A DNA stretch of 64,000 bases from Mermis nigrescens (lineage: Eukaryota; Nematoda; Enoplea; Mermithida; Mermithidae): positions 19,700,764 to 19,764,763 of the forward strand of contig JAVLUZ010000142.1 of assembly GCA_036768485.1 (NCBI GenBank). Reading direction: 5' to 3'. Under the pieces are notes generated by a model, which did not search any database, was not told the origin of the DNA, and worked only from the letters and a program-made list of their open reading frames with translations. The position numbers and the translations under genes were made by a program. Each line of letters begins with the position of its first letter. Position 1 is the stretch's first letter. Positions 13,288 to 39,926 of this stretch are shown here, one piece after another.

Positions 13288-13358
<71 letters not shown>

Positions 13359-13361
13359 TAA

Positions 13362-13426
<65 letters not shown>

Positions 13427-16400: not shown

Positions 16401-19400
16401 TCTCAATTTTAAGCGCTTTTTGAGTGAAGTACTTAAAAGCACTAATCTGGCGCGAAGTGCCGGAAAAATTTTGACGTTTTCACTGCTTTTGACCTCAAAA
16501 ATGTTGCAAAAAATGTTCCATCAGCTCCGCCGGGCAGTACCTATCCAGCTGACCCTTTAGGGGTTAATACCCCCCTCACCCTCATGTGCATGTATGGTAT
16601 GTACTCCCCTGAAGTTGAATACCCCCAGATAACTGTAGACTCCGATAATTCTATTTTTAGTAAGATTTTTGGCAATTTTACCTATCCTGACCCCTGGAAT
16701 TTTCTTGCTGCCTGTGCATGGTTCGCACCCCCAGATCTTGAAAAAACCCTCCACAGATTACTGTAGACCCCTAGAATTCTATTTTTAATCATATTATAGG
16801 TGATTTTCGGTAATTTCACTGAACCAGATCCCCAGAAGTTTCTCGCTGCTCATGTATGGCCCAACCCCTAAACCGATGTGTGAGGGTGATGCGATTTTGT
16901 TGCTAGCAAACGCTTCTGTTTATAGAACATCGACAATTGAACGTTCATATATGCATAAGTGCCTTGTATTGTGTCGTCGCATCGTGCATGACTTGTGACC
17001 ACACATGGGCATGGGGGTTTGGGGGTATACCCCCAGAAGGCCGGATATCCCCTCAAAAGACCAAAATACCCCCCCCTCAGAATTCAATTCTTAAATTTTT
17101 TTGTTTTTTTCGCAATTTTTTGGTGCCAAGACAACCTTTGAAAAATGGTGTATTTTTGCCATGTACTATTTTTAAAACCATTTTTTGACCTTTGAAACAT
17201 CTCGCACACCCCCCCCCCTAAGAATTTCGGTGCCGCCCACCTGTTTGTGACTACACGTGGGCGGTGGAAGATGTTTGGGAGGAGGGTTTAGTGAGATATA
17301 TCCCTATTAATCCGGCGGACCCCCAAAAATAATCGATAGACTACCCAGAAACTGAGATTTTGGAATTTTTTGTGCAATTCTTTGAACTTTTATCCCATCA
17401 AGACCCCCTCCCCCAGAATTTGGTAGCTGCCCAGGTATGCTCGTGACCATGCATGTAATGACCATAGGTGGGCTGCACCAAAATTCTGGGGGTGCAAGAT
17501 TTTTCAAAGATGAAAATATGGCCTTAAAAATGGTGGTATGGCGAAAAAAACACCAATTTTCAACTTTTCTCATCGAGCACTATCTATTGTAATCAAAAAA
17601 TTGCGAAAAAAAAAAAATTTCAAACATTGAATTTCGGGGGTTTCTGGGGGCTGCATACCCTCCGAACTCCCCCACGCCCAGGTGTCGTAATGAACTCCCT
17701 GCTCATTTTTTCCGAAAGTGGGGGTGGGTTAAAAATTTTCTGGCTTGGTGAGTGGGAGATGCTCGTGGCGTCGCGACGTGATATAATGTTTCTTATTCTA
17801 GACCTTTCAAACAAAAATCATCTGCATAAGTTGCTCTAAAAACTATTATACTTAAAATTAGGCAATTTTGCTCGCATATTGTAAAATCGTTTCATAAGGC
17901 TCTGTTTCCATAAAATTTGTATGGTGTCAAACACACGTGGGCGTGGGGTATGGGGGGTTCAGGGGTATTCACCCCCATAAACCAAAATACCCCTCACCAG
18001 AATTCAATTTTTGTAATTTTTTTGTTTTTTTCGCAATTTTTTGATACCAATGGATAGTGCTCAATAAGAAACGCTGAAAAATGGTGTTTTTCGCCATACC
18101 ATTTCACGTGGGCATGGGGGTGAAAAATCTTGCACGCCCCAGAATGTTGGTGCTGCCCGTTTATGCATACCACCACTTTTAAGACCATTTCTTGACGTCT
18201 AAAAAATCTTTGCATTCCCCAGAATTTTGGTGCTGCCCACCTATGATGCCAAATGTTTCACAGTCGTCAAATGCTTGATTGTTCAGCAAAAGAGCGTTAG
18301 AGCGGTCCCGTCCTCGATAGACCCACTGTATCGTTAGACCCACCGGCTCGTTAGACCCAATGTCTCAATAGACCCACCAGAAAAAAATCTCGATAGACCC
18401 ACTGTATCGATTGACCCACCGAAAAAATATCTCGATAGACCCACTGTATCGATAGACCCACCGAAAAAAATCTCGTTAGACCCACTGTATCGATAGACCC
18501 GCCTAAAAAATCTCGTTAGATCCACTGTATCGATAGACCCGCCGAAAAAAATCTCGTTAGACCCACTGTATCGATAGACCCACCGAAAAAAATCTTGGCA
18601 GACTCAATGCATGTAAAGACTTGCCGACAGATGTTCCGCTCAAATCACTTATTTAGGCTCCTTAGCGTGTGATAATTTATTCTTTATGAAATTACACATA
18701 GGTACATTATGTAATTTCACTAATTCATAATGAAAAGAGTGGACCTTTTTTATTTATCTGCTCAACTTATATGTATTGCGCATCACAAAGATAATTAGGT
18801 ACTAAATAAGATGACTGTTCTATTGTGAATGAGCTTCTCTTCTTTTACTCGGGATGGATTAGATATGCAGTTACATTACACTTAAAAACTCATTCGAAAA
18901 TTATGTAAATATTAACAGGGATTTGAGCGGTTTAAAGTCTGTTTCAGATAATTTCGTACCTACCTAAATTTTCAAACTATCCTCTAACAAAAAGCTGACA
19001 GATTGTGAGCATAGAATCAATCTAATACATAATTACCGTAACCTTTCGGCTCACTGTCGATGAAAATTCGTGAAATTTATGCACAAATTTATGTGAAATA
19101 GACTTAATTTAATACTATGGTCACATTGTTTGCAAAATGCAAATTGTGCATGAAACTCGATTCCTATTAGGTGTTCGTTTATTAATTGCGCTTTATGTGA
19201 GTTTAACAATTGTCGATGCCGGCCATATGAAAACACAAGTAGATGGTTTCAAAATTTTATTGCTCATGTATTCACTTATAAGGTAAGATCACACATTCCC
19301 ACGGAACGGAATACCTCCCACTTTGAGCGCTAAATATAGAAAGAGTTCATTAGCGATTCAGCTGCAAAAAGGAAATCCATCTCAATTTCGTCAATAGCGT

Positions 19401-20778: not shown

Positions 20779-21160
20779 CAAACGAATACTTTACGTACCT
20801 ATCGTTTTTTATTTTTTAACCGTGATTTGTGTTTTGCTGTTGACTTGTTTGTTTAATAGGATAGATGACTAGAACTGCAAAAGAAATTGCTTAGTGTGCC
20901 TGTCGCACAAACAAATTTCGCAAGAAGCCTTCAATAGTATACATGTCTCACGGAACTTAGTGCGTGAAAAATAATTTCCAGCGATCAAAAATGTTTGTAC
21001 ATATAGGCAGCTACCAGCTACAAAAGTGGTTCCTATTTAGTTGCATAATATAACTAATATAAATCTTACCCGTAGATCACATTGTGAATACATGTAAAAA
21101 ATAAATGCATATGGGAATTTAATTTTACGTGTGACAAAGGTACCTAAAAGCCTTCGTCAC
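20779..21160 (+). other. COQ7 3' flank / 3' UTR
   Basis: AT-rich. An AATAAA at about 21100 is a plausible polyadenylation signal. Confidence 0.45.
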
Positions 21161-21400
21161 CATACGTGGGCAGCAAGAAAATTCTGAGGGGGTCCAAGAT
21201 TTTTTGGAGGTCAAAAAAATGGCCTTAAAAATGGTGATATGGCGATAAAAACACCATTTTTCGACGTTTCTCATCAAGCACTATCCATTGGCATCAAAAA
21301 ATTGCGAAATAAAAACGAAAAAATTTTCAAAATTGATTTCTGGGGGGTTCTTTTGTTTCTGGAGGGGGTCCAGACCCCCCCCCCCACACGCCCATGTGTG
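21161..21400. mobile_element. M1-family hAT-type MITE, 240 bp, inverted orientation
   Basis: CATACGTGGGCAGC start, CACGCCCATGTGTG end; perfect target duplication TTCGTCAC (21153-21160, 21401-21408), matching nTnnnnAn. Very similar to 25994-26253. Confidence 0.9.
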
Positions 21401-21819
21401 TTCGTCACGTACCTACGTATTAACAACCTGTGATGGAATACGTATGTATGTACATACTGATCGGTCATTTGAAATAGTAGATCGAGGATTTTCTGACAGG
21501 GTATGAAGCCCAAGTTTTCCTAATTGTGTCAAAAGTTGTGAGAAAGATCCGTTCGTTATGCATAAAGTACCGGTTTTTTTCGTTTTTTGGTAAACAATTT
21601 GTGATCCTAAAAATTGTTAGAAAATTTTTATTTTTCTACGAAAAAACTTAAGTGCAAAAAGGCACAACGTAAAAATAAGAAGGCAGCCTTGGGATTTGGT
21701 GGCTGCCGAGGGGAGATGGGCTTTGCTGCGCTAAAACCCTAATGAACATCCACGTCGGACAAAATAGAAATTTGGGCATAGCCCCACCAAGGATTTCAAA
21801 CCTCGAGTACCTAGAACAA

Positions 21820-22042
21820 ACATGACGTCAGTATAGGAGTGAAGAACCAAAATTATTGGGGGTGCTGCAAGATTTTCAAGGTTAAAACTGGTTTTAAAAA
21901 TGATGGCATGGCGGAAAACACCATTTTTCAACGTTTTTCATCGAGCACTATCCACTGGCATCAAAAAATTGCGGAAAAAGGGAGAAAAAATTTCAAAAAT
22001 TGAATTCTGGGGTGCATACTTCCCACCCCCCACGCCCACGTG
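21820..22042. mobile_element. M1-family MITE, left tip decayed
   Basis: GAACCAAAATTATTGGGGGTGC... through the M1 core to CACGCCCACGTG. The left end and target duplication are not clear. Confidence 0.6.
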
Positions 22043-22169
22043 TAATGAGCATTCTGAAATGAAAGAGGCGAATTAGTTAAAGGACTTTGAAGCACAACAA
22101 AGGTGGTACATACATACATATGGCAGTCTGCAGCACCGTACAAACGTACCGAGACAATACTCGTGGAAT

Positions 22170-22641
22170 TATCACGTAAAATTAGATAACGCAAATTTAA
22201 TATAAACTTACAGCAGGACATAACGAATACGAAACTATTAGGAGGAGACGACTCGCGACCCAAAACGAATAACTACGACCAAGACGACTAAAAACTATGT
22301 TATAGTATGTGATATTTAAACATCTCTTTAACATTAGCTTATGCGGATTCGGCTAATGGGTTTTTGAATAGGTTTCGGCAAACTTTTGAGTAATAAATAA
22401 ATGTAGTAGAACTGATACGCGAAAACTGTCAAGAATATACGAAGTAGCTAGTGTGCGCATGGACAATGAGACAATTGGGCGGAATTTGTCAGTTACGTAG
22501 GAAAAACAATAAAAGCGAATAAAACGATTAGTTTAAATCAAAGTCAAAAAAGAATAAGAACAAGTGTTTATATTTCACGTAGACCTTTTCCACTGAGGAG
22601 CTTATTCGTGCGGATTAATCTTGTATGCTTTGTACGTCACA
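22170..22641 (-). repeat. 3' LTR
   Basis: On the minus strand it starts TGTGACGTACAAAGC and ends ACGTGATA (TG...TA rather than TG...CA). 472 bp, apparently identical to the 5' LTR. Confidence 0.93.
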
Positions 22642-22653
22642 TCCCCCTTCTTT
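22642..22653 (-). other. Polypurine tract
   Basis: AAAGAAGGGGGA directly abuts the start of the 3' LTR on the minus strand, the normal place for plus-strand priming. Confidence 0.8.
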
Positions 22654-22807
22654 AATTCGGACGTCCTCGGACGATTCGGCTCCTTTTTTTGCTTGATTTT
22701 TCATAATGTAAACTACTTTAAAGCATAGAACCAAATAAACACATTTTATACAGGTGTAGCACTATTAAACTATGAAAACAACTACAAGTGCTTAAAATTA
22801 ATGATAA

Positions 22808-25800
22808 TTAATATTCTACTGATTCTGCTTCACTTGCATCATCAGCATAATCGTTATATTTACGGTCTAACTGTGGTTTGACTTGTTTACAAAAATACGG
22901 TTTTGTGCGGTTGACATGCACAGTTTCAGTAACCGATGATGTAAGAGACCGAATAGTTAAATTAGGATAATCAATAGCAATTACCTTGTAGGGACCTTGG
23001 AAAACTTGTGCAAGCTTTTTACACAAGCCACGCTTAATTATTTGTGAATCTTTCAACACTAAATCATTAATCTTGTAGCTTGTATCGTTTGCTCTTTTAT
23101 TGTAATATTTTGCATATTTTTCCTGCGATGCATGTATCTTATTTTGAATTACATCTAAAGATTGCGTGAAGTGTTGCTTGACTGCATCACTATATGAATC
23201 GATATCTAACAAATACGGATTCATATCAGCAGTTAGAGCAATATCTATTGGTAGCTTGGGTAAACGTCCATAAATGAGTTCACACGGTGCGTATTGTGTT
23301 GACTCATTAACACTAATATTAACAGCAAAAACTGCAAAAGGAAGATGGTCATCCCAATCCATTTGATTGCTTTCTACGTACATACGCATACGGGTGGCTA
23401 AAGTTTGATTTGCACGTTCAACTTCGCCATTAGATATCGGATGATATGCAGTGCTGTGCACCTTCTTTACACCTAGCATTTTCGTAACTTCAGTCATTAA
23501 CTGTGATGTAAAATCAGTTCCTTGGTCTGACTGCAAAATGTTTGGTGCGCCATGTCTGCATATGATCTGTGTTACAAAAAGTTTTGCAATCGTTTCTGCT
23601 GTAATATTTTGTGTTGCAAATGCTTCGACGTATTTCGAAAAATAATCAATGAAAACGACTATAAAGCGGTTGCCACTTTCAGTGATTGGCAATGGTCCCA
23701 TACAATCGACACCTAGTCGTTCGAATGGACCACTAACTGAAATGGGTTTTAGTTCGGCTTTAATTCTATGTCTCATTGGTTTGTTCAACTGACACTGCTC
23801 ACAAACCCTACAGTACTCAGTAATATCTTTAAGCATTGTGCTCCAATAGTAACGCTTACTTATTAGCTGAATAGTTTTTCGCGCGCCAAAATGACCCGCT
23901 AACTCATCGTCATGATGGGTTTGAATAATAAAAACTTGCAACTTTTTAGGTACCACAATTCTAAAAGTTCCGTTTTCTTTGTAATACAAGATGTCATTTT
24001 TGTACTCAAATTGTTCCAATTCAGATGCATTAGTGTGATTTTTCAATTTATCTATGATAGGCTTAAGTTTATGATCCTTATGCTGTAGAATCTTCAGGTT
24101 AAAATTACTTTCGTGATCGAAATTCAGATTCACACATTCTTGAGGGCGACTAATAATATCATTTTCGATATCAAAGACAGGTGTTGCTTTTTCATTCGGA
24201 AAACGTGAAAAAGCATCAGCATTTTTGTTTTTGCTACCTTTTCTCGGTACGATATTTAGCTTTGTATCTGCAAGTGCCAAACCCCATCGTGCTATGCGTG
24301 GTGAGGCATTTTGTTTTCCTAAAACAGCTTTAACCGCAGTATGGTCTGTATGAACGGTGACTTCATGCATGTACAAGTAGGGTCTAAAGTATTTAACAAA
24401 CTCTACTACAGCAAGAGTCTCAAGCTCAGTAATGGGATAATTTTTCTCAGCTGGCTTCAATGTTCTACTAGCATAAGCAATTGGATGCTCGAAACCATCG
24501 TTGCTTATCTGGCTTAAGACTGCTCCTATTCCTAGAATTGAAGCGTCAGTCTGTAGAACAAAAGGCTTATTAAAATCTGGATGCGCTAGAATTGGCGGTT
24601 GAATTAGCATATTTTTCAGCAAGTTGAAGGCTTCTTGTTGCGACACAGTCCATTCGAATTTCTCCCCCTTCTTTAAGAGTCTGGTGAGGGGTTGAGATAA
24701 CTGAGCGCAATTTTTGATGAATCTCCTATAATACGATATAAGACCCAAAAACGCTTTTATTTCTTTTGCGTTTCTCGGTTCCTTTATAGCTCGTACAGCC
24801 TCAAATTTACTGTCATCCGGGAGAATTCCAGCATGTGAAATCTTGTATCCTAAATACTGAACTTCATTAAAGCTAAACTTACATTTATTTAGTCGCAGTT
24901 TCATACCTCCTTTATGTAAACGATTTAGAACATCTTTTAGCCTTAATAGCATTTCTTCATGGCTTTTTGCGAAAACTAAAATATCATCAAGATATATTAG
25001 GCACGAATTCCATTGTAAACCTGATAAGAGAATATCCATCAGCCGCTGAAAAGTTGCTGGGGCATTGCACAACCCAAAAGGCAAGTAATTAAATTCATAC
25101 AAGCCACATGGTGTTGAGAACGCTGTTTTTTCGCGGTCTTGATGAGCTATAGGAATGGACCAGTAGGCATTCGCCTGGTCTAACGTAGTGAAAAATTTCA
25201 TGTTTTTCAAAGTGTCCAGTATATCATCAATACGAGGCAAAGGGTACACGTCTTTTTTAGTTACTTCATTTAAACCACGAAAGTCTATGCATAACCTATG
25301 ACCTCCTGTTTTCTTTTTCACTAAAACGACGTTCGTTGCCCATGGTGATATACTTGGACTTATGATATTCTTAGACTCTAGTGCTTTAATCTCTTCCAGT
25401 ATTATCTGTTTTTCCTTAGGTGATGTACGAAAAGGCAAACGTCTTACTGGTCTATTGTCTCCAGTGTTAATAGTGTGAGAAACTAAATCAGTTTTTCCAG
25501 TGTCTTTTTCGTCCAAAGCATACAAGCTGGGAAAAAGACAAAGAACTTCGACAAGTTGCATCTTTTCTTTCGGCGTTAAATTATCAGAAATATTAGCATG
25601 CTGAATCACGTATTTGCGCGATTTTGCTGCTAAATTCGCCTTTGTGTTCACCAAAGACAAAATAAATTTCTCATTATTGTTTTTTTCGTAGCCTTTTATG
25701 TTTCCAATGCACATGCCTTTATGAAGTCTAATCGAATAGGCATAAAGATTAAGTGCTTGCACTAGAATATGCTGATTTCTCACACTGTTAACGGAGGCTG

Positions 25801-26029
25801 CAAAATATGCACCATAGTCAGAATTAATATTACATGGTTCGAATTGTACGTTGCTTACATTCTTATATAATGATGATACGTTAGCAGATACTAGCATAAC
25901 TGAACGCGCAGGTATATCGCAAGTATCTTCTACAGTAACTGCCCCTCGTTTTATGGGCGGATTATAGAGTAATCCACTGCAAGGTATCTCTACCATATGT
26001 GGGCAGCAAGAAAATTCTGGGGGGTCCAA
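22808..26029 (-). CDS. Retroelement Pol: reverse transcriptase, RNase H, integrase
   Basis: Open for 1073 codons. The first ~13 codons, and the TTG used as a nominal start, lie in the inserted MITE; originally the frame joined the protease upstream. Domains by residue: RT about 215-395 with the YLDD catalytic motif at 346-349; RNase H about 490-605 with acidic residues D494, E536 and D562; integrase HHCC zinc region about 705-746; DDE core with D775, D835 and E871 (exact 35-residue spacing). No internal stop. All catalytic residues are present, so the enzymes look intact although separated from the protease. Confidence 0.95.
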   Translation of the reverse strand: MDPPEFSCCPHMVEIPCSGLLYNPPIKRGAVTVEDTCDIPARSVMLVSANVSSLYKNVSNVQFEPCNINSDYGAYFAASVNSVRNQHILVQALNLYAYSIRLHKGMCIGNIKGYEKNNNEKFILSLVNTKANLAAKSRKYVIQHANISDNLTPKEKMQLVEVLCLFPSLYALDEKDTGKTDLVSHTINTGDNRPVRRLPFRTSPKEKQIILEEIKALESKNIISPSISPWATNVVLVKKKTGGHRLCIDFRGLNEVTKKDVYPLPRIDDILDTLKNMKFFTTLDQANAYWSIPIAHQDREKTAFSTPCGLYEFNYLPFGLCNAPATFQRLMDILLSGLQWNSCLIYLDDILVFAKSHEEMLLRLKDVLNRLHKGGMKLRLNKCKFSFNEVQYLGYKISHAGILPDDSKFEAVRAIKEPRNAKEIKAFLGLISYYRRFIKNCAQLSQPLTRLLKKGEKFEWTVSQQEAFNLLKNMLIQPPILAHPDFNKPFVLQTDASILGIGAVLSQISNDGFEHPIAYASRTLKPAEKNYPITELETLAVVEFVKYFRPYLYMHEVTVHTDHTAVKAVLGKQNASPRIARWGLALADTKLNIVPRKGSKNKNADAFSRFPNEKATPVFDIENDIISRPQECVNLNFDHESNFNLKILQHKDHKLKPIIDKLKNHTNASELEQFEYKNDILYYKENGTFRIVVPKKLQVFIIQTHHDDELAGHFGARKTIQLISKRYYWSTMLKDITEYCRVCEQCQLNKPMRHRIKAELKPISVSGPFERLGVDCMGPLPITESGNRFIVVFIDYFSKYVEAFATQNITAETIAKLFVTQIICRHGAPNILQSDQGTDFTSQLMTEVTKMLGVKKVHSTAYHPISNGEVERANQTLATRMRMYVESNQMDWDDHLPFAVFAVNISVNESTQYAPCELIYGRLPKLPIDIALTADMNPYLLDIDSYSDAVKQHFTQSLDVIQNKIHASQEKYAKYYNKRANDTSYKINDLVLKDSQIIKRGLCKKLAQVFQGPYKVIAIDYPNLTIRSLTSSVTETVHVNRTKPYFCKQVKPQLDRKYNDYADDASEAESVEY

Positions 26030-26253
26030 GATTTTTTGAAGATCGAAAAATGGCCTTAAAAATGGTGATATGGCGATAAAAACACCATTTTTCGACGTTT
26101 CTCATCAAGCACTATCCATTGGCATCAAAAAATTGCGAAAAAAACGAAAAAATTTTCAAAAATTGATTTCTGGGGGGGGTCTTTTGATTTCTGGGGGGGT
26201 CTTTTGTTTCTGGGGGGTCCAGACCCCCCAGATCCCCCCCACGCCCATGTGTG
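25994..26253. mobile_element. M1-family hAT-type MITE inserted between protease and RT
   Basis: CATATGTGGGCAGC start, CACGCCCATGTGTG end; perfect 8-bp target duplication ATCTCTAC (25986-25993, 26254-26261), fitting nTnnnnAn. It puts stops in the frame so that PR ends at 26112 and the RT frame restarts. Confidence 0.95.
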
Positions 26254-28592
26254 ATCTCTACTGCTTTAAACCTTACAAATTGCTTTTCATTATCAAATTG
26301 ATAATTTTTAAATCGAAACAAAAAATTCGATCCCAAAAGAAGAGGTTTGCTGCAATTTTCTTGAATATGCACCAAAACGGTTTCCTCTATGTCAGCAACT
26401 CCAACTGTAAGAAGACATTCACCTAAGAGAGGTATGAAGTCACCATTTGCCGCTAGTGGTTGGGCAAAAGTAGGGAAGACTGAAACATCTCCGATTTCCT
26501 GAATTAATTTTGCATCAGCAAGTGAAAAGACAGCTCCTGTATCGATAAGTGAATCAACGATACATTTGCCATTTACTATGACTGTAATATGAGGCGTTCG
26601 TCTTTCGATATCTATGTCATGCACGTTTGCTAAAACAGAATCATGCATTTTAATATGATCATTGGGATTTAACTGATGGTCATTATCAGGTGACCAGCCG
26701 CTAAATCTACCAAAACTCCCTGGAACAAAACCACGTAGAGGGCGAACATTAAACGTAATATCATCTAAATCTTCTAATGTGAGATCACTAGATGCATTTA
26801 CATTTCTCTTGTTTTTCTCAAAAAATATTTTTCTATCAATATCGTATGACGAGTCTGCCTCCACGTAAGCCACTGATGCATTTTGAACTTTTATTTGATC
26901 AGCCCCTGTTTTATAGGATACAGTTGGATTTTTGACATTACTATTCTTATTTAATTTTAGTAAGGTTAATAAAGCTGTGCCAAGATTATTTGTAGACGTA
27001 TCAGTCACTCTACTACTTGCATTGCGTTTTCGATAAATATAAAACATGAGACATAAGTATGCCACATATCCTAATCCGGCAATAACAAGTATGAGAAGAA
27101 GTGCATTGATGATTAATTGTACTGGACCAGAAATCAAAGAATTAAGGCCAGAATTAAAATTTTTCTGGCTCTGATCGATAAAATGTTCTAAAGAATTGTA
27201 AACCCCTCCAGCTGCGCTTTTGACACCAGCACCAACTCCTGTAAGAACGTCATGTACCAAGTCAGGTTCTATGGAGAGGTCAGCCGTATATTTCAGGACA
27301 CTATTCAACTTATTTTCGAGGGCATGAGTACGAAAAATGTACTGTTTTAAGTACGAAAGAGCCACTGGAATTTCAGCAAGTTTATCATGAAAAACTGCTG
27401 GAGTATCAAACTGAAATATTTTATGCTCACCTTTCCACAACAAGTTTAACGGTATTTTACTCACATGAGTTGGTCCAGATTGCGTTTGCCAGAGTGAATC
27501 GTTACGATATACCGGTACGGTACGATGATTACAGTCTACTTTTGGTGAATACTGTAAGAGATCTGGGGAACCTGGACTAATAAAAAGTACCTCATTATTA
27601 ACAATAACTGGAGTATTGATGTAGCAAGTATCATTCAACTTATGATTATGTATGATTTTCGCATTTTCAATTTGTTTACAACGCCACACAGACAATATTT
27701 CGCCTGTGAAATGTGCCGTAATATCGTTGCGTTGTAGCAATGCACGTGCGCCTAACGTTGCATCAAACTGTAATAACTGCCACACTAAATCTAAATATTG
27801 CTGCGCATGACTACATAATTCGGTCCACATATAACGAAAATTATTCTTATCAGAATTTATCATATGATATTCTAAATAATTTAATTTAGCATTAACTGGA
27901 TCATTTTCACTTGAATGATTTCTGCTGACAGCATAATTATTAAAATCACGCCTACTACTCCCATTAAACTGAAGAATCGCACCTTGATGAGTATTAAATG
28001 CTGCACTTAAATGGCTACATGCCTTATAAGGTGACTTAATACTGAAAGATGCTTGCATTTCCTCAACAATTAAATAATGATCACTAGATAATGCATCATA
28101 ATTTCCTTTAAAACTAAGAAGACATGCTGATTCTATATTTGTCTCATTCCAGACAATTGTACCTTCATTACTAAAACATTGACTTGCATTTGCTAAACAG
28201 CCACCTAGATCGCCTAAATCGCTAAATACAGTTTTACCGTTATAGGTTGCTACTGTACCTAGTTCAAGCATGAAATTTTCTACTTCCTTACAGACTTGCT
28301 TGCAACACCACTGATACTTAACGGCCAGGGAATTGTTCGTTGACCATATCCCCGTAGGCATCAGAACCAGTTGTTGCCCATCATAATTTTTCGTTTTTGC
28401 GACATTTTTACAAACATCTGGAGCAACATTCTCAATTTTTACATTATCACTAAGTAACCCTTTTGCCCCAAAGAAGCCCATGTTTGTGCAAACTTTTCGT
28501 TTACGAGTTAAGCATTTATGAGCGTTAAAAGTGACAGGCTCATCTAAAGGCACAAAAACATTTACGTTCAATTTTTGGGGCCGATTTTGCAA
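26112..28592 (-). CDS. Env-like membrane glycoprotein fused in frame to retroviral-type aspartic protease
   Basis: One 826-codon frame. Residues 1 to about 485 are ectodomain-like: many Cys (including a CC-x3-C cluster near 96-101), several N-x-S/T sites and hydrophobic/amphipathic stretches near 430-490. A transmembrane helix covers about 491-518 (IINALLLILVIAGLGYVAYL), followed by basic YRKR. After a ~150-residue hydrophilic linker comes a retropepsin: active site DTGA at 684-687 and the LLLGSNFL helix motif at 751-758. The final ~45 residues are MITE translation. The listed start is a TTG; the frame is open a little further upstream. Fold class of the glycoprotein is unknown to me. The protein would be a type I membrane protein with the protease on the cytosolic side. 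Confidence 0.85.
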   Translation of the reverse strand: MQNRPQKLNVNVFVPLDEPVTFNAHKCLTRKRKVCTNMGFFGAKGLLSDNVKIENVAPDVCKNVAKTKNYDGQQLVLMPTGIWSTNNSLAVKYQWCCKQVCKEVENFMLELGTVATYNGKTVFSDLGDLGGCLANASQCFSNEGTIVWNETNIESACLLSFKGNYDALSSDHYLIVEEMQASFSIKSPYKACSHLSAAFNTHQGAILQFNGSSRRDFNNYAVSRNHSSENDPVNAKLNYLEYHMINSDKNNFRYMWTELCSHAQQYLDLVWQLLQFDATLGARALLQRNDITAHFTGEILSVWRCKQIENAKIIHNHKLNDTCYINTPVIVNNEVLFISPGSPDLLQYSPKVDCNHRTVPVYRNDSLWQTQSGPTHVSKIPLNLLWKGEHKIFQFDTPAVFHDKLAEIPVALSYLKQYIFRTHALENKLNSVLKYTADLSIEPDLVHDVLTGVGAGVKSAAGGVYNSLEHFIDQSQKNFNSGLNSLISGPVQLIINALLLILVIAGLGYVAYLCLMFYIYRKRNASSRVTDTSTNNLGTALLTLLKLNKNSNVKNPTVSYKTGADQIKVQNASVAYVEADSSYDIDRKIFFEKNKRNVNASSDLTLEDLDDITFNVRPLRGFVPGSFGRFSGWSPDNDHQLNPNDHIKMHDSVLANVHDIDIERRTPHITVIVNGKCIVDSLIDTGAVFSLADAKLIQEIGDVSVFPTFAQPLAANGDFIPLLGECLLTVGVADIEETVLVHIQENCSKPLLLGSNFLFRFKNYQFDNEKQFVRFKAVEITHGRGGDLGGLDPPETKDPPRNQKTPPRNQFLKIFSFFSQFFDANG

Positions 28593-28630
28593 ATTTTTAG
28601 GCCATAAACACGAAACTTTTCTCGGGATCT

Positions 28631-29218
28631 CTAGCGGGTGCCCACTTTTGAAATCCCACAGATTTGCAATGCCTTAGTCATGCTTAAACTGCAGATAAAC
28701 AAACAGATGAATATAATATTTCTAAGATTCAAATTTTGAAACGAAGTACTAAAATTATTTGCGCCGTTTGTTTTTTCACACTTTCGTTTTCCCTCCTTGC
28801 AGTCATCCTTAAATTTCGGCCTCGTCGCTGGCTGAAAAAATTTAAAGTAGTCAGTCAAAGTACCTATTTTGGACTTAAAGTATAGACTACTAGTACATTC
28901 TGTGAAACGCCGCAGATGCAATAGGTGTTTATCCGCGATTTTCAACGCGGCTTTAGCTTTTTCCTGCGCCGCTCGAAATTTCTTTTCCACCTTGTCGAAT
29001 TCTGGGTCCGGGTGGCGAACTATGCGCCGATAGTCACCATCGGGCGTTGGTGACTTCATCGGCGACGCTGGTGAGACCGGCTCGATGGCGGGGGCCTCCG
29101 TCGCCAATGGCGGCGCTTGGATTTTAAACGGCTCTAGCTCCGAAGCCGCGCGACGCCGTCGTAAAGGCCTATTTGGATTTTGGCCACTACCACCACGCCG
29201 GCGCTTTCGGCGCAGTCC
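28631..29218 (-). CDS. Basic leader and signal-peptide-like segment upstream of the env-like protein (broken)
   Basis: The frame has an Arg-rich start (RRKRRRGG), a Pro/Ala-rich middle and a Lys-rich helix. It ends with hydrophobic IIFICLFICSLSMTKA (about 28670-28720), which looks like a signal peptide, then a stop at 28631-28633. The main env frame is open in a different register across 28592-28650, so a frameshift or splice is needed to connect them. The reported start near 29236 is a TTG inside the Harbinger inverted repeat, not a real start; the frame is also open on the far side of that insertion (34102 to about 34175). Confidence 0.6.
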   Translation of the reverse strand, partial: GLRRKRRRGGSGQNPNRPLRRRRAASELEPFKIQAPPLATEAPAIEPVSPASPMKSPTPDGDYRRIVRHPDPEFDKVEKKFRAAQEKAKAALKIADKHLLHLRRFTECTSSLYFKSKIGTLTDYFKFFQPATRPKFKDDCKEGKRKCEKTNGANNFSTSFQNLNLRNIIFICLFICSLSMTKALQICGISKVGTR

Positions 29219-29426
29219 TAGGCCGGTATTCACCAACGTGAATTAAGCTTAATTCGAATTAAATATAGGGTCTTTAATTCGAATTAAGGTTAATCCGTAT
29301 TCACCAAGGCGAATTAGAATTAAGTAGGTGGAGTTACGATCACATTTAATTCGGCGTTTTAATTCTGCTCTGAGTAGAATTAGAAGGACGAATTAGCTAT
29401 TGTGAGAAACTGTGTTGTGATTTGTG

Positions 29427-29660
29427 ATGGAAGTTCTCAATTTGCTGGATATTATTGATGAATATGAGGAAAATGCTGATTTACGACGACAAATTTTGGA
29501 TCAGAGCAATCCGTTTAATGCTTACGATAATGAAAGTTTTCACATTCGATACAATTTGCGAAACGAAGTTGTGAGAGAATTGATAGAACTGTTATCCAAA
29601 ACTATTTTACTTAATGTATTCATGTGTTCTCAAACTGGCATTTTCATTCATCAAGTGTAG
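29427..29660 (+). pseudogene. Harbinger transposase, N-terminal fragment
   Basis: ATG at 29427. The region with NPFNAYDNESFHIRYNLR and VVRELIELL is the N-terminal segment seen in HARBI1-like transposases. The frame then runs into unrelated sequence and stops at 29660. The DDE nuclease core is absent, so it cannot transpose on its own. A truncated pseudogene, or exon 1 of a lost gene. Confidence 0.7.
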
Positions 29661-29692
29661 TTTTCTGCAAAAATTAAAAATCGCATGTTTGT

Positions 29693-29938
29693 TCAACTTA
29701 CTTGTTTCATGTTCTTCCAGCAAATCAATAGTTGTTCGTTTGATGGGTTGTTCACGGCAGGATTTCTCGAAAACGCCGCCTCGATTTCTTTCCAGGCGGC
29801 ATTTTTAGCAAACATAGTTTCTGAATCTGTCATCTTATTCTCAACAACTTCAACCCTTTCCGCAACACATTCCAATAAAAATTCCAATTCTTCTGTGTTA
29901 AAATTGGAATCCTTGTCGCGGCTCTTTGATGAGTTCAT
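29693..29938 (-). CDS. Myb/SANT-like DNA-binding protein of the Harbinger element, probably truncated
   Basis: ATG at 29938. The segment FNTEELEFLLECVAERVEVV...AWKEIEAAF...LLICWKNMKQ is the Myb/SANT-like trihelix that forms the second protein of animal Harbinger elements, which carries the transposase to the nucleus and DNA. It ends 33 bp from the convergent transposase piece. At 81 codons it holds little more than the domain; a spliced continuation is possible. Confidence 0.72.
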   Translation of the reverse strand: MNSSKSRDKDSNFNTEELEFLLECVAERVEVVENKMTDSETMFAKNAAWKEIEAAFSRNPAVNNPSNEQLLICWKNMKQVS

Positions 29939-30103
29939 TCTTTCGAAAGTAATACAAGCGAAAACCGGAAATATAGCAACCTGCTGTAAAGTAACGCGTA
30001 ATAAAGCAAGAAAATGTAAAAAAGAAAACAGACATCGGGACGTGCAGGCACAGCAGTGCCTGCAAAAAGCACTTTAATCGAAACTATCCTAGATATAATT
30101 CGA

Positions 30104-30866
30104 ACTAGCAAAGAAAAATGCTCCGATGGAACAAAAAAGATGAATATACTTGGAATTGTGGATTATTATGGATGTAAAAGGAGGGGACTAGGAAAAATCT
30201 ACCTAAAGTCGGAAAATCTGCTAAAAATCACACTTTCTCTAAGCAACGCAAAAAATCGATGTATATTCTGCGGCCAACAGATTAAAATAAATATTAAACC
30301 ATAACAATGATTGAAACAGCAGCACGTTAGCTATGCAGTAGCTATGGAAATGATATTAAGTAAAGTAACAGTCTTCCAAGCCAATTGAATGAAATAGCAA
30401 ACATCGAAGACAAGTGAAGACATGGTTGGTTTAAAACAGTAGGAAACGCGTAAGTTGACTTGAAACAGACTTAATGTAGATACACTAGCATGCCCGAAAC
30501 GATTGTGTGCACTAATCAATCGGCTCCTGCTTTGCTTGCTATAATGCTCATAAAATAAAACAACTTTAAATACAATACCTCTTAGTTTTCTATCAATCAG
30601 GTGCCAGCAATTTAAAAAAGTAACCTTGATAGATTTCGTTTATACACTCTTATCTGAAACTTCGAACATTATTTAAAAAATACACTTTTTTAGAGGCCGC
30701 AGAATATACATCGATTTTTTGCGTTGCTTAGAGAAAGTGTGATTTTTAGCAGATTTTCCGACTTTAGGTAGATTTTTCCTAGTCCCCTCCTTTTACATCC
30801 ATAATAATCCACAATTCCAAGTATATTCATCTTTTTTGTTCCATCGGAGCATTTTTCTTTGCTAGT
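30104..30866. repeat. 172-bp perfect-looking inverted repeat with 419-bp spacer
   Basis: 30104-30275 and 30695-30866 are reverse complements with no mismatch seen. The arms include CTCCGATGGAACAAAAAAGA and GGAGGGGACTAGG. Transcription would give a long hairpin RNA. Confidence 0.9.
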
Positions 30867-31185
30867 ACACTACTTTTAATTAGCGTGATTTGAGTACATC
30901 AGTCAGTAAACACAATCAGTAACATGCCACAATAATGACAACAGTCCAAGAACGCGGAAAACAATATTGTTCTTAACGTCAGCATTATCCTTTTTAAACA
31001 AGACAACCTTATTGACACCATCCATTTTCAAATTAAAACTGCATTAAGTTATTTCTTCTTAATGTGCAGTTCACTTATAATCAAGCACAAAAATTTAACC
31101 AACGAATTCACATTGCAAATCCTCACTCAATCAATACACAAGCACAATGTGTTGTGACTTTTGAAATTGAAAACGCCCAATTTTC

Positions 31186-31232
31186 AATTTTCAAATTGAA
31201 AATTGGATTAATTTTCAAATTGAAAATTGGGT
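31186..31232. repeat. Short palindromes CAATTTTCAAATTGAAAATTG
   Basis: Two overlapping perfect palindromes based on TTTTCAATTTGAAAA-type sequence lie in tandem. Confidence 0.7.
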
Positions 31233-31599
31233 GTTTGAATTTGCGATAAAGAAAATAATCAAAAGATAGTCACTTGGTTTATTTAAGCCGAGTAATAAAA
31301 TAACGACCGTCCACCAATTCCAAACTAAACGCGACTAATCTGATCACTATGAAAAAGTTTTGAAAAATGAGCTTGCTAAGCGAGAGTTGTAAACCAAGAG
31401 AAACTTAAAGTTAAAACCTACCATTAAATTATTAAGAGAATTATAAAAGATTTTAAACTTCAAGAAAATGGAAAAGGCGGGATGTTGGTAAATTAGAAGG
31501 CAAAGTTTTTCGGCAAAAATTCAAAAACTTCACGCAAATATCAAATGTAAGGAACACTAACTCTTTGATTTGGTAGTAGAATAAATTTGTAGTATAGAC

Positions 31600-32760
31600 T
31601 ACATATTAACAACAAATGAATAGTGCAAACTTTACACAACTACTAGGTGTAGAGAATACTAACAGTTTACGGCTTATTAATGTACATGATTACAATAAAG
31701 CTGCATATCTTTCACGACTTCTGTGCACAGTAGTGTGATTGCTGGTTCATTTTAAACCACTTTTGCAGGCAATTTACATCAATTAAACGATAGCTCTCCA
31801 TGTGCAAGATTTTGTGAAACATATTATAAACACGGCTAAGAAAGATTTAACTTTAATGCAACCCATTTAAGACAAAATTACATCTCTTCAATGATCTAAG
31901 GACACTCGAACATAATTTTTAAATCACTTTAGATTACTTTTGAGGGTAAACAAACTCACTTAGTTGATGTCTCACATATGAATCCTTGAAAATTTCTTGA
32001 CTTCAGTTACAAAGTCTCTGCAAGTCTATCGAATTAAGGTTAACACGTAACGTAAACTTTACACAAACACATAGCGTAAAGAATATTTTAGTCGGATTCG
32101 TAATTTTGATATTGCTCCGATATTTCTTTCAACATTTATGGAAAAATGAGTCTCCATAGTGTTTTAAAGACAATAAACATTAGGTTTAAACCACTTTGCA
32201 ATACTGCTGAGTGTAAGCAAGCGCGCCCAACTGACGTATATATTTCATTCCCTGTAAATTTTTATATCAGGAAAAAATTTCGGTTTTTGCAATGCTCTAG
32301 AACAAAGGCTAAATGCAGTGTAAAAAATTACTCGGATATTATGATCAACATTCATGAAAAAATTATGTCTCTACAATGGTCTGAGGACATATAAACAATG
32401 AGTGTAAACTACTTTACATCACTGTTGGATGTAAACAAACGCGCCTACGTGACGTCTCACATTTGATCCTTTGAAAACTTCTAGACTCCAAGAAAAAATT
32501 AGGTTTCTGGAATGCTCAAAAACGAAGATAAATACATATGTAGTGTAAACTTCATGTAAACACCTAGTGTAAAGAAGATTTTAGTCAGATTCGTAATTTT
32601 GATATTGTTCCGATATTACGATTAATATTTATGAAAAAATTAAGTCTACATAATGTTCTATGGGCAAACTAACAATTGGTGTAAACTACTTTACAACACC
32701 GTAGAGTGTAAACATATGCGCCAGACTGGCATATCAAATTTGGTTCCTGGTCCATTTCTA
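31600..32760. repeat. Degenerate long tandem repeats with GTGTAAAC/TTTACAC motifs
   Basis: Units of roughly 220-290 bp recur: e.g. TTTTAGTCGGATTCGTAATT at about 32088 and TTTTAGTCAGATTCGTAATT at about 32578; GATGTCTCACATATG at about 31967 and GACGTCTCACATTTG at about 32450. GTGTAAAC-like words continue sparsely to about 33770. Confidence 0.7.
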
Positions 32761-33985
32761 GACTTGATAAACGTGTCCCTGACTCGTAACCGGAGAAGCA
32801 GGTAGAAAAAACAAGACAGAAACGCATTTTAAACTCCAAATTTTTGACTTTACACTCGCTAAATATTAATGTATAGACAATTTGCTTTGACATGCACCCG
32901 ATATAAAGCACTTTATTTTTATTCTATTAGACTTATCCCGACTTCTGGACGGAGAAAGTGGCGAACAAAAAACGCAACAAAAACGCATTTTCCATCATTT
33001 AGAACACTGTAAACTTTAAAATTCCGTACCGAACTCCCCATTGAGTTTAAAGAAATTCGGTTTGGTACAATTTGTAGCTTTTAAATCGTAGTACATTCCT
33101 GTGTGCCAAAATTCTGTTGCAAAAATTATTTGGCATGATTTATCAATCAAACTTCGGAAAAAACGTGTTTTTTCGCCCATTTTTTACCTCTGATTTCGAA
33201 CTTTACACCCCCATAAATAAATCAATATTGCGTTTTTTTAAATGCGGTTTGCTGCGATGTTTAGCCCCTGTGAGGCACTTTATTAATGCTGTCTTCGATT
33301 TGCACTGACTCATAAGCGGAAAAATTTGGCAGAGAAATCTTAGTTAAAATCCGTTTTTTTACACCATCCACTAGAGTGTAAACTTTAAACCCCAGGATCT
33401 AACTCACCATAGAGCATAGAAGACTTTGCTTATATGCAGAATGTAGCCCTTGATCCGCTCTACATTTCTGTCAGAAAACATTTTAAAAACCTCATAACCG
33501 GAGTTAGTATCGGACATAGGAAGGTTGAAAACTCGACCAAAAAGTGCTTTTTCACCCCCAGATTTTCGCACTCTTTACACTGCCGTTCGATAAATAATGC
33601 GAATTTCAAAAAACAAAAAAAGTGTCATCTGTAGAATTCATCCCTCTATTATCCTATTCTGTTCAATCCTTCGAGTCATCAATACTCAGTTGTCCACATG
33701 CCGCAGTAAAAAGGTCCCAAAATTTGTCCTATGTTATAACGTTACACAAAAACTTTACACCTTCTTTACACAGTCAATTTTGAGTTTCAAGAAAAACAAA
33801 AAAACACGGGCAGCGAATTTTTTTATTATCTTTCTTTTAAAAAAAACCGCACCTTCCAGAAGTGTCCCGTTATAGCTGTAGGGGGGTGCCCAGGTGTTGG
33901 GGGTACCCAAGTATATTATAGGTACGCGCTAACGCGCTACCTATGATTAAAGGACTTTAATTCGAATTAACTAATCGCCTTTAAT
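32761..33985. other. Harbinger interior, non-coding
   Basis: AT-rich with scattered TTTACAC words; no coding signal found in several short frames. Confidence 0.5.
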
Positions 33986-34370
33986 TCGTATTGGTGAATA
34001 CGAATTAACTTTAATTCGAATTATTTGTTTAATTCAAATTAAGTAATTCGAATTAAGGCTCTAATTCGAATTAAGTTAATTCGCGTTGGTGAATACGGGC
34101 CCTAGTGTGATAAATGATAATTCAGAGCTGACTGCCTTAGAGGAAGTGAAGTGTGGCACAAAATAATTCATATTCATTTCGTTGCTATGCTTTTGTCATC
34201 TCAAAGTCAAGACTGACAGTATGATCATCTGTGTCTTACTTGCGCATGTTACCTTTATTTTCGATATTACAATTATATTTATTAAAAGGTCGTTGAGACA
34301 AACTTGATCTAATATTTTGATCAGTTTGAGAGTTGCTCCCACGCCGATAAAAATTATGATAATATTGTCT

Positions 34371-34769
34371 TTAAGGTAAATTACTATTTCTATAGCGATC
34401 TTGCTTATTATTAGTCATACCTTGTTGATTAGTAAAATGAATGCTATGCTTATAACGATTTTGCTTATCATTATTTGCACTCGGTTGACCAGAAAAATTA
34501 AAATTAGTATCCTTATAACGATTTTGTTTATCATAATTAGCACTTGGTTTGAAATTAAAACGATTTTTCCAATTATTAAAATTAGTGCTACCGTGTTTAT
34601 TAGTTCTATTAGCGAAATTATCCTTACTCTTTTTCCTCGGTCCGCCTGTAAAACTCCGATCGTGCTGTTGAATTGCCGTCTGCCTTTTTTCTTTGTCGCT
34701 GAGGACGATTTCAGTAAGTAGATCGAGATTCGCTTTCAAATCTGCGAGCTGCGTATGGCCTGAATTCAT
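34371..34769 (-). CDS. Gag C-terminal (nucleocapsid-like) frame
   Basis: 132 codons from an ATG at 34769 that overlaps the stop of the capsid frame (TAATG). Rich in Asn, Lys, Arg and Gln, with three imperfect repeats of the type SANYDKQNRYK; no CCHC zinc knuckle. A basic, low-complexity RNA-binding tail is the likely role. The same frame stays open for about 45 codons after its TAA. Confidence 0.6.
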   Translation of the reverse strand: MNSGHTQLADLKANLDLLTEIVLSDKEKRQTAIQQHDRSFTGGPRKKSKDNFANRTNKHGSTNFNNWKNRFNFKPSANYDKQNRYKDTNFNFSGQPSANNDKQNRYKHSIHFTNQQGMTNNKQDRYRNSNLP

Positions 34770-35713
34770 TAGAATATTTTCAGTCGTTTGTTCTTGATCA
34801 TGAAATTACTTCGTATTAGCTGGGATTCAACATAGCAAGCCGCTTTTAGGGCCTCTTCCAGAGAAGAAAATTCACGAAAACAGATTTTCTCTTTGATTTC
34901 CGGCAAGAGTCCCCTGATAAAAATTGGCTTGAAAATAGATTCTCGTAGCGTACTATTTAAATTCGGGTAAGCAATTTTTGCCATTTTCCTTAAATTTTCA
35001 AGGAATACGGAAACACTTTCGCCAGTTTTCTGCTTTTTGTCGTACAGAAACTGCTGAAAAACATCGGCATCTTTGCCGTCGGGAAAGTGCTCTTTTATTT
35101 TAATAATAAAACCATCATAAGAAAAGGGAGGTTGTGAGGTGCGCTTAATCTCCTGAAGAGCTGCTTGGGCTGCACCCGATAAATTTGCTTCTAAGAATGC
35201 AATTTTATATTCATCGTCTCCCTCAATTCCTTGTAATTTTAGAAATTGATTAAATTTTCCGATCCAGTCAGAAAAACATTCGCCAAACGATCCGCTGAAA
35301 ATCGGAGGAGGGCGTAAATTAAACAAAGGATTGACTGGAAAATACGGTCGTCTCCCATTTCCAAGAGCAACATCCGCTGGGTGAAGATTTTCGAATTTTA
35401 TATCTAAACTTTCCAATCTTTGAGCTAAAGGCTCAATTACTGTGCGGAGTGCATCTTTAACAGTGTTATCCAAAAGAGTCGCCTGGTCATGATTGGGCAT
35501 TTTTCTTTTAATAGTTTTAGAAGTAGATAATTTAGCTTCGTCAATAATTTTCCGAAATTCCTCACTCAGAGTTAATTTAGGAGAATTTCCTGACTGTGTA
35601 TTAAAACGACGAGTCAAAACGGGAAAGGAGCTCCTATTATTTTCCACGTTTGAGGAAAAATCAGAAAAAAAACAAATCGTTGGATTTAAAGAAATCTCAA
35701 CGAAACGAAGCAA
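34769..35713 (-). CDS. Gag capsid of the LTR element
   Basis: Open for 314 codons; the nominal start is a TTG, and the first ATG is residue 72 (35500), which I prefer. The capsid-like retrotransposon gag region covers residues 137-290, with DWIGKFNQFLKLQGI, FLEANLSGAAQAAL and ESVSVFLENLRKMAKIAYP. It ends in TAATG, overlapping the next frame by one base. It lies just downstream of the 5' LTR and should encode the particle shell. Confidence 0.82.
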   Translation of the reverse strand: MLRFVEISLNPTICFFSDFSSNVENNRSSFPVLTRRFNTQSGNSPKLTLSEEFRKIIDEAKLSTSKTIKRKMPNHDQATLLDNTVKDALRTVIEPLAQRLESLDIKFENLHPADVALGNGRRPYFPVNPLFNLRPPPIFSGSFGECFSDWIGKFNQFLKLQGIEGDDEYKIAFLEANLSGAAQAALQEIKRTSQPPFSYDGFIIKIKEHFPDGKDADVFQQFLYDKKQKTGESVSVFLENLRKMAKIAYPNLNSTLRESIFKPIFIRGLLPEIKEKICFREFSSLEEALKAACYVESQLIRSNFMIKNKRLKIF

Positions 35714-35918
35714 TGAGGTTCCTTAAATTTAGGAACCAAAAAAAATAAATCCGCTGTAAGTATAAGAATATCGGTCAGAAAACCGATGACAAAAGGTCCG
35801 TTTTTTAAAATCGAAAACCAAAATTCGATTTGGAAAAAAAACGGCAAAAATTATCGGAAAATTTCTTCTTCTAGAAAATTTCCGTAAAGCAGATTCGGTC
35901 AATTTTCGAAAGAAAATT

Positions 35919-35936
35919 TTTACTGGAGTCTCGCCA
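35919..35936 (-). other. Primer-binding site
   Basis: Directly after the 5' LTR on the minus strand: TGGCGAGACTCCAGTAAA. It starts with TGG, complementary to a tRNA CCA end. The tRNA cannot be named from sight. Confidence 0.65.
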
Positions 35937-36408
35937 TATCACGTAAAATTAGATAACGCAAATTTAATATAAACTTACAGCAGGACATAACGAATACGAA
36001 ACTATTAGGAGGAGACGACTCGCGACCCAAAACGAATAACTACGACCAAGACGACTAAAAACTATGTTATAGTATGTGATATTTAAACATCTCTTTAACA
36101 TTAGCTTATGCGGATTCGGCTAATGGGTTTTTGAATAGGTTTCGGCAAACTTTTGAGTAATAAATAAATGTAGTAGAACTGATACGCGAAAACTGTCAAG
36201 AATATACGAAGTAGCTAGTGTGCGCATGGACAATGAGACAATTGGGCGGAATTTGTCAGTTACGTAGGAAAAACAATAAAAGCGAATAAAACGATTAGTT
36301 TAAATCAAAGTCAAAAAAGAATAAGAACAAGTGTTTATATTTCACGTAGACCTTTTCCACTGAGGAGCTTATTCGTGCGGATTAATCTTGTATGCTTTGT
36401 ACGTCACA
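35937..36408 (-). repeat. 5' LTR
   Basis: 472 bp, same sequence and length as 22170-22641 by eye. Confidence 0.93.
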
Positions 36409-36412
36409 GAAT

Positions 36413-38459: not shown

Positions 38460-39640
38460 AAGAAAGAAAATTTTATTACTAATACCAACAGTTAAAATAC
38501 AAAATGACAAGATATATAATAAATGCAATTACGAATTAGTAAAGGGACATGCGAGTCAATGGAATGACAAGCTTTACGCGCGCCCACAAGATATCTAGAT
38601 AAATCAAAGTTTGCTAATCTAGATTTAAATATGTTTAGGTTAGGGGAAGAAACAATGAAGTCAGGAAGATCGTTCCAAACTGCGATGTATTTGTAAAAGA
38701 AATCAAACTTTTCTAAATTAGAATGTACAGTAGGTATGACTAATTTAAATCTATTAATGCTACGGGTAATATTATGATTAAATACAAAAAAATCATCAGC
38801 TTCCAAACATGATTTATGACAAATAATTTGATACATCATACACAGACAAATCTGCAAGCGTCTTAATTCAAGTCTGCACAATTTAAGTTGTGTTAAACGA
38901 TCCTCGTAAGAAAGAATATTATTATAGCCAAAAATATATTTAGTGAATCTACGTTGAACAGCTTCCAATCTATCTATATCCTTAAGATAAGAGGGGTTCC
39001 ATACACTGCAACAATACTCTAATAAAGGTCTAACATAACAACTATAAGCTTTAACAAGATTACCTTTATCACGCGAAAAAAATGATTTGCGTATTAAAAT
39101 ACATCTAAAGAAAGCTTTTTAATCAAAGAATTATAATGTTCCTTAAATTTTAAATTTCGAGGAATCAAAACTCCTAAATCACGGACAAACGGATCACTAG
39201 AAATAATTTCCCCATTTAGTCTATAAACAGCTTTTTGATTATTATTACCTAAATATAGAACTTGACTTTTGGTTCGAGAAATAGGTAAATCCCATGCAAT
39301 TGCCCTGTCAATAATCTTATCTAAATCAAACTGTAATAATTTACAGTTACGACTAATATTGAAAATTTTGATATCATCTGCGAACATATAAACCGTACTA
39401 CAAATATTATCACATATATCATTTATAAAAATCGAAAAGAGCGTAGGTCCAAGGACACTTCCTTGGACGACACCGCTGGTAACAGGCACATAATCTGAAA
39501 AAGACTGATTAACGCGAACACATTGGGAACGATTAAACAAATAGGCCTTTAACCATGCATACAAATTACCGTTTATTCCATATCCGTTTAACTTAATAAG
39601 AAGTTTTTCCATATTTTGCCAAAAATGTCCTTTTTCTGGC
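38460..39640 (-). pseudogene. CR1/Jockey-like LINE, 5'-truncated RT gene and 3' UTR
   Basis: Minus strand. 39642-39094 encodes RT: SGVVQGSVLGPTLFSIFIND, then FADDIKIF with the catalytic ADD. After a frameshift near 39100 comes the thumb/C-terminus (...YVRPLLEYCCSVWNP, EAVQRRFTKYIFGY) to a stop at 38492. The 3' UTR ends in ATTAGTAATAAAATTTT near 38470. The endonuclease and first part of RT are missing, the usual 5' truncation. Confidence 0.85.
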
Positions 39641-39926
39641 ACAAAGTAGGTGGGAGCCCCTAAAAGTAGGTAGGCTCCGCTCGTTGGATTAACTCCTCGG
39701 TATCGCAGTTTTTCAGCATTTAGAGGGTTTTTAAGAAGTAAAATTCCGCGATATGGAAAGAATTTTGGTGTTTGTTTACATTATGGAAAATTTTTGTAAT
39801 ACGAAAATGCGTTCTAGGAAGGCAAAATTCCGAAAAATTTCCGGCGCGATTGATTTAATTTTATACCTACCTACTTTTAGGGCTCCCACCTACTTTGTGC
39901 CAGAAAAAAGGACGTTTTTGGCAAAG
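39614..39926. repeat. Inverted repeat, 61-bp arms, abutting the LINE
   Basis: 39614-39674 and 39866-39926 are near-perfect reverse complements (CTGGCACAAAGTAGGTGGGA in each). The left arm overlaps the start of readable LINE sequence. GGGAGCCCTACCTACTTT recurs at about 41251-41270. Confidence 0.75.

Follow-up and report, generated by a model that had tools for sequence, protein, structure and literature searches.

The window analyzed here is a 64-kb stretch (64,000 nucleotides) of the genome of the nematode Mermis nigrescens, and it contains a Ty3/Metaviridae-type long terminal repeat (LTR) element on the minus strand at 22170-36408. Read along that strand, the element carries gag, then a gene for an envelope-type glycoprotein (env), and then the domains of pol: protease (PR), reverse transcriptase (RT), RNase H (RH) and integrase (IN). 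An initial annotation had proposed an LTR retroelement, at 22808-35713, with the glycoprotein fused to the enzymes. The gag-env-pol order with env in the Pol frame was confirmed. Identical LTRs and a target-site duplication bear out the LTR retroelement; its extent had been drawn too short, and the element is larger than first stated. Its features are listed below in the order of the minus strand (ORF, open reading frame; P0008 is one of the relatives described later).

36409-36412: target-site duplication GAAT, 4 bp, on the 5' side of the element
35937-36408, minus: 5' LTR, 472 bp, TG...TA on the minus strand, 472 of 472 bases as in the 3' LTR
35922-35936, minus: stretch resembling a primer-binding site (PBS), starting with TGG directly after the 5' LTR (by eye)
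34769-35722, minus: gag capsid ORF (Pfam Ty3_capsid; BLASTP to the N-terminal part of P0008)
34371-34805, minus: C-terminal part of gag in a shifted frame, rich in N, Q, K and R, ending in a stop (ORF list)
29221-34101: inserted DNA transposon with imperfect 41-bp terminal inverted repeats, separating gag from env in this copy
28631-29220, minus: frame preceding the glycoprotein; residues 176-194, counted in the 28631-29242 frame, form a hydrophobic signal-like segment
27126-28673, minus: glycoprotein ectodomain (Pfam PF24664, conserved cysteines, fold matches)
27060-27116, minus: transmembrane segment (hydropathy 2.58 at residues 520-538)
26250-26606, minus: retropepsin-like protease in the glycoprotein frame (DTGA at 26532-26543)
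25992-26245: insertion of a miniature inverted-repeat transposable element (MITE), about 254 bp, between protease and RT (blastn)
22808-25991, minus: PR-RT linker, RT, RNase H and integrase, with a GPY motif near the end (Pfam)
22642-22653, minus: purine stretch resembling a polypurine tract (PPT), adjoining the 3' LTR (by eye)
22170-22641, minus: 3' LTR, 472 bp, identical to the 5' LTR
22166-22169: target-site duplication GAAT, 4 bp, on the 3' side of the element

The glycoprotein frame and the genes around it

The minus-strand frame 26112-28673 is open over 853 codons and, as a single frame, joins the glycoprotein, a transmembrane helix and a retropepsin. Given how often stops occur in the window, 808 open codons in one frame would arise with a probability of about 7.5e-22. 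The transmembrane helix described initially was found at residues 520-538 of this frame (the earlier count began at 28592), and the protease motif, formerly DTGA at residues 684-687 of the 26112-28592 count, is the same as residues 711-714 here, within LIDTGA at 709-714. The glycoprotein does follow gag, as had been claimed, but its signal-like leader is located in the neighboring frame, 28631-29242, and not in the ectodomain frame. Between this upstream frame and that of the ectodomain there is one apparent frame change, and the first residues of the upstream frame (29221-29242) are inside the DNA transposon. The nearest ATG codon preceding the signal-like segment is about 113 codons off. Comparison of the upstream frame with P0008 gave nothing significant (lowest E 1.0; E 2.2 for a short match around the signal).

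Ectodomain residues 162-398 match the Pfam family Monjiviricetes_fusion (PF24664; E 4.8e-18, 64.9 bits, cut-off 27). The low-confidence model of the ectodomain resembles class III fusogens, with fold matches to chu/rhabdo-like and gB glycoproteins; the predicted-structure comparison also gave matches to retropepsins. Judged from its sequence, the glycoprotein is homologous to the Monjiviricetes-type (class III) fusion glycoprotein family and is related to the glycoproteins of chu- and rhabdo-like RNA viruses. Three Pfam families matched the env frame at E 0.1, none of them of the baculovirus F type. By sequence only, the env frame had one chance-level match among solved structures (E 0.46), and tblastn of this frame against phages gave no match. 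When a nine-row profile of whole relatives was compared with solved structures, pol chains were returned, with no glycoprotein among the best 60 of 352 matches.

Fourteen cysteines between ectodomain residues 37 and 518 are invariant columns in nine of nine aligned sequences, namely the window and eight relatives. This conservation bears on the proposal that the glycoprotein has lost its role as a fusogen and instead anchors intracellular particle assembly to a membrane. Its fusion activity is putative, and most Metaviridae particles are apparently not infectious outside the cell (PMC7879559). Yet the keeping of all 14 cysteines is more than an anchor should need, and we regard this proposal as improbable.

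RT, RNase H and integrase all lie in the minus-strand frame 22808-26101, with Pfam matches to RVT_1 (1.3e-34), RT_RNaseH_2 (8.9e-38), Integrase_H2C2 (1.2e-21) and rve (9.6e-11). Matches to RNase H models fall at one place in the element, and the GPY motif is claimed for the window element alone. Among the best 60 of 221 matches to solved structures, the best for Pol was Ty3 Gag-Pol with 448 bits, and the next non-Ty3 chain, named 'Enzymatic polyprotein', had 196 bits; a 'Peptidase A9/Reverse transcriptase' chain, presumably of the foamy-virus type, had 123. The pol stop is only 166 bp from the 3' LTR, a gap too small for an env gene downstream of integrase. The candidate explanation of env as a solo host gene was rejected, as env is enclosed by the LTR pair with its target duplication.

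The gag capsid ORF matches Ty3_capsid (PF19259; E 2.9e-07, 30.6 bits, above the cut-off of 29.1). In the C-terminal part of gag, no Pfam match was found at E 0.1 and no CCHC knuckle was seen by eye. A programmed shift could be the cause of the frame change in gag.

The window copy is damaged. The larger of two inserted DNA transposons (4.9 kb), which we take to be PIF/Harbinger-like, carries a Myb/SANT-like ORF at 29693-30073. Nested in it is a perfect 172-nt inverted repeat (arms at 30104-30275 and 30695-30866, 419 nt between them). The MITE noted initially between PR and RT is present at 25992-26245; a query of 25985-26245 had nine further blastn matches in the window, with members of the family within 9883-11141, 15980-18245 and 21159-22012. 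Apparent frame changes are found at two sites, one within gag and one at the start of the ectodomain. Because of the insertions and frame changes, this copy is very unlikely to be functional. The identical LTRs suggest that the element probably inserted recently. They are identical despite the two insertions and apparent frame changes inside; this copy may have been moved by the enzymes of other copies, or the damage may be very recent.

Elsewhere in the window, two overlapping minus-strand ORFs at 38492-39780 resemble a non-LTR retrotransposon reverse transcriptase by eye, and a minus-strand ORF at 12949-13440 contains a long poly-isoleucine run, probably a simple repeat. An Rfam search of the window gave no match.

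Eight relatives with the same order

Three protein searches, restricted to lengths of 0.55-1.75 of the query and to shared words, gave 1, 3 and 6 matches at E 1e-3 or better, self-matches included. They yielded eight distinct homologues, P0001-P0008, each on a separate contig; the starts and ends of these database ORFs are predictions. Since the searches were limited by length and shared words, other layouts of the glycoprotein may exist unseen. No relative was confirmed in scans of viral contigs (queries A1, A2, A3 and the pol frame), nor in a genome-contig search with P0001.

P0001, 1130 aa: starts within the ectodomain, ends within RT
P0002, 1056 aa: gag-env, ends at the transmembrane helix
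P0003, 1925 aa: own signal, then env-PR-RT-RH-IN
P0004, 2707 aa: gag-like part-env-PR-RT-RH-IN, dUTPase before env
P0005, 1079 aa: starts with a signal peptide, extends to the beginning of RT (by eye)
P0006, 2293 aa: single ORF, gag-like part-env-PR-RT-RH-IN
P0007, 2294 aa: single ORF, gag-like part-env-PR-RT-RH-IN
P0008, 2499 aa: single ORF, gag-like part-env-PR-RT-RH-IN

PF24664 was above cut-off in all eight. After env, a protease motif was found in seven and RVT_1 in the same ORF in six, with an integrase zinc domain after RT in five of the eight; a CCHC knuckle motif was found before env in five, and env after integrase was seen in none of the eight. The window element can be followed along P0008: gag aligns with residues 94-261 (25% over 168 columns, E 7e-13, BLASTP), env with 659-1196 (38% over 543 columns), protease weakly with 1304-1425 (E 0.010) and pol with 1436-2457 (43% over 1039 columns). 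Because these four parts align serially, P0008 has the same order in an uninterrupted ORF. In P0004, a dUTPase domain occupies residues 622-742 between gag and env (E 6.9e-21), suggesting that the gag-env interval accepts further inserted domains.

A stop between the transmembrane helix and protease was sought in the eight homologues. Seven are open into the protease motif; P0002 stops short of it, at the transmembrane helix. Absence of env from other copies was also sought, and env was present in all eight. As read from these predicted proteins, the in-frame glycoprotein-protease layout is not private to the window copy, and the order and the in-frame join are established in independent elements, some of them with one gag-env-PR-RT-RH-IN ORF. 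The initial proposal that the glycoprotein is fused to PR-RT is supported, and the relatives exceed it: in four of the eight (P0004, P0006, P0007 and P0008) the gag-like part shares a single ORF of 2293-2707 aa with env, PR, RT, RH and IN. The window copy bears two insertions and apparent frame changes, which could point to a private rearrangement or an assembly artifact in this genome. However, its LTR pair is intact, the target duplication is present, and the same order is found in eight proteins of eight other contigs (the two shortest end before complete RT domains). Given this order in the relatives, both a private rearrangement and an artifact were rejected, with a negligible probability left to them.

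A hydropathy scan (19-residue window, threshold 1.8) detected hydrophobic segments both before and after the ectodomain in six of the eight relatives (P0002, P0003, P0005, P0006, P0007 and P0008). For P0001 and P0004, only the transmembrane segment after the ectodomain exceeded 1.8. No other segments above 1.8 were found in the eight.

Another possible explanation is that the working form of the window's family has two ORFs, Gag and Env-Pol. Env-Pol would then be a type I membrane protein led by a signal peptide of its own, and the gag-env fusion of some relatives would be secondary. Both P0003 and P0005 start with a hydrophobic signal and show no gag, and the gag of the window stops before the transposon insertion. 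However, in five of the eight relatives the env ORF is extended at its N-terminus and has a CCHC knuckle motif, and the window frame 28631-29242 has an ATG only at residues 62 and 188, with the signal at about 175. We consider this two-ORF form possible, at clearly less than even odds. It differs from the explanation preferred below only in whether gag joins the chain, and the odds of the two are not exclusive.

The close pair P0006 and P0007 was compared by region, with the bounds set by hand. Identity was 70.5% in the ectodomain, 73.1% in the capsid, 78.3% in RT-RH and 70.9% in IN, and it was 47.3% in the PR-RT linker, 33.3% in the cytosolic linker and 47.4% in the gag-signal linker. The ectodomain is thus conserved to the same degree as IN and close to the level of RT-RH. 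By this protein-level identity, env appears to be retained. The identities of P0003 to P0004, P0006 and P0007 are 0.41-0.43 in env and 0.375-0.377 in pol; exchange of env or fast evolution of pol could possibly explain this discrepancy.

A proposed membrane-threaded chain

The best explanation, to which we assign a probability of roughly 0.6, is a group of Ty3/Metaviridae-type elements in which a class III-like fusogen lies between gag and pol, in frame with Pol, as part of a membrane-threaded chain. The hydrophobic signal before the ectodomain would thread the ectodomain into the endoplasmic reticulum, and the transmembrane helix would stop transfer. As parts of one chain that spans the membrane, Gag and Pol would remain on the cytosolic side (the inner side of the virion), the order being Gag (cytosol), signal, ectodomain (lumen, later outside), transmembrane helix and PR-RT-RH-IN (cytosol, later inside the particle). 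Such chains could gather at the membrane and bud as enveloped particles, with the glycoprotein itself holding capsid and enzymes at the membrane and delivering Pol as its tail. Signal peptidase and the built-in retropepsin would then cut the chain apart, freeing capsid and enzymes. Shell, fusogen and enzymes would reach the same particle as a single translation product, with no separate env mRNA. Equal molar amounts of Gag, Env and Pol are a difficulty for this model, which splicing, decay or internal starts could solve.

This difficulty would be eased if env were in frame but removable like an exon. In that case, spliced RNA would encode a cytosolic Gag-Pol and unspliced RNA a Gag-Env(-Pol), with the full fusion as a minor product. 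Excerpts of two studies offer precedents: insect Metaviridae typically express Env from spliced RNA, in one subclade with a donor within gag (PMC12992720), and Cer1 has a spliced cerv mRNA from an RNA with no stop between gag and pol (PMC10309623). A removable exon need not stay open in frame into PR and RT, yet env does in six of the eight relatives. This explanation seems unlikely to us.

Several results weigh against the membrane-threaded chain. The window copy encodes no working polyprotein, interrupted as it is by two DNA transposons and with the frame apparently changed at two sites. Its gag stops (34371) before the transposon and, therefore, the window does not demonstrate a gag-env fusion in its own family. 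Gag is not fused in all relatives, as P0003 and P0005 start with a signal peptide and P0001 starts within the ectodomain. A Pfam capsid or gag match was above cut-off only in P0002 and below it in P0008; gag in P0004, P0006 and P0007 was assigned from the knuckle motif and its place. The predicted models have a mean pLDDT of 52.3 and 58.9, and PR is less conserved than env between P0006 and P0007 (51.5%). Finally, the env and pol identity tables of six elements gave a Pearson correlation of 0.88 (P 1.7e-5) that owes much to the P0006/P0007 pair and a Spearman correlation of only 0.44 (P 0.10). Since the latter is weak and the former leans on one close pair, we do not claim that env and pol constantly travel together, and their joint inheritance is not proven.

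If the membrane-threaded chain is correct, the glycoprotein would carry Gag and Pol into the budding particle at a fixed proportion with no spliced env RNA. A chu/rhabdo-type glycoprotein has here been captured by a Ty3-type element, an event that an earlier survey did not detect (PMC10084718), and it was inserted within the polyprotein rather than added at its end. The group offers a natural case of capsid, fusogen and enzymes on one chain, making envelope incorporation without a separate message testable.

Comparison with known systems

The window element shares with Metaviridae (Ty3/Gypsy) the LTR pair, PBS- and PPT-like stretches, a Ty3-type capsid, the PR-RT-RH-IN order with a Ty3-like RT, the GPY motif and a Pol closest to Ty3 Gag-Pol. 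The ICTV profile of the family places Env downstream of the integrase domain (PMC7879559), whereas Env in the window element precedes the protease and is in the protease frame. This order contradicts both the gag-pol-env rule and the way in which Metaviridae are formally described.

The remaining comparisons draw on excerpts of the papers cited. Errantiviruses and related insect endogenous retroviruses (gypsy, ZAM) likewise combine a Ty3-type pol with a viral fusion glycoprotein, but their Env is of the baculovirus F type and is a third ORF typically expressed by splicing (PMC12992720), in contrast to the class III-like glycoprotein within the pol frame here. Anakin, a mosquito BEL/Pao element, is similar in that an LTR element captured a glycoprotein of chuvirus kin (PMC7642597). 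Its pol is of the BEL/Pao type, and the window element is set apart from it by the Ty3_capsid match and the Ty3 Gag-Pol best match, not by direct sequence comparison with BEL/Pao. For Roo, Tas and Cer-7, the envelope-like protein is downstream of the polyprotein (PMC7642597). Gypsy fragments have been found near chuvirus-like glycoproteins, with no clear capture other than in Pao in the excerpts of that study (Dezordi 2023; PMC10084718).

Lokiretroviruses also have an Env resembling Mononegavirales fusion glycoproteins (PMC9040795), but their RNase H is dual and their env is an additional gene, while the window element has RNase H at one place and env inside the ORF. The plant Ty1/copia element SIRE1 reportedly makes an envelope-like protein as a polyprotein extension by stop suppression; it differs in being copia-type and in having the envelope-like ORF downstream of the polyprotein (PMC6317226). 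Among other elements, the env-like genes of bdelloid elements are ORF3, downstream of pol (PMC5408684), Troyka elements have no envelope (PMC12440569), and MDG1-group elements have a small transmembrane protein in place of Env (PMC11952523). An env between gag and pol is not described in the available passages of PMC10309623, PMC2829016, PMC2577118, PMC3599292 and PMC6317226, and no description of one within a single ORF was found among the papers listed in one open-licence library, judged mostly by titles and the starts of abstracts.

We tentatively suggest, at slightly less than even odds, that these elements form a lineage of their own among enveloped reverse-transcribing elements, with shell, entry glycoprotein, protease, polymerase and integrase produced as one membrane-threaded polyprotein of flavivirus-like layout. 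The flavivirus polyprotein is one chain with a capsid, an internal signal, glycoproteins on the outside, and a protease and polymerase on the cytosolic side. Flaviviruses differ in being RNA viruses without reverse transcription, and the likeness is one of layout only.

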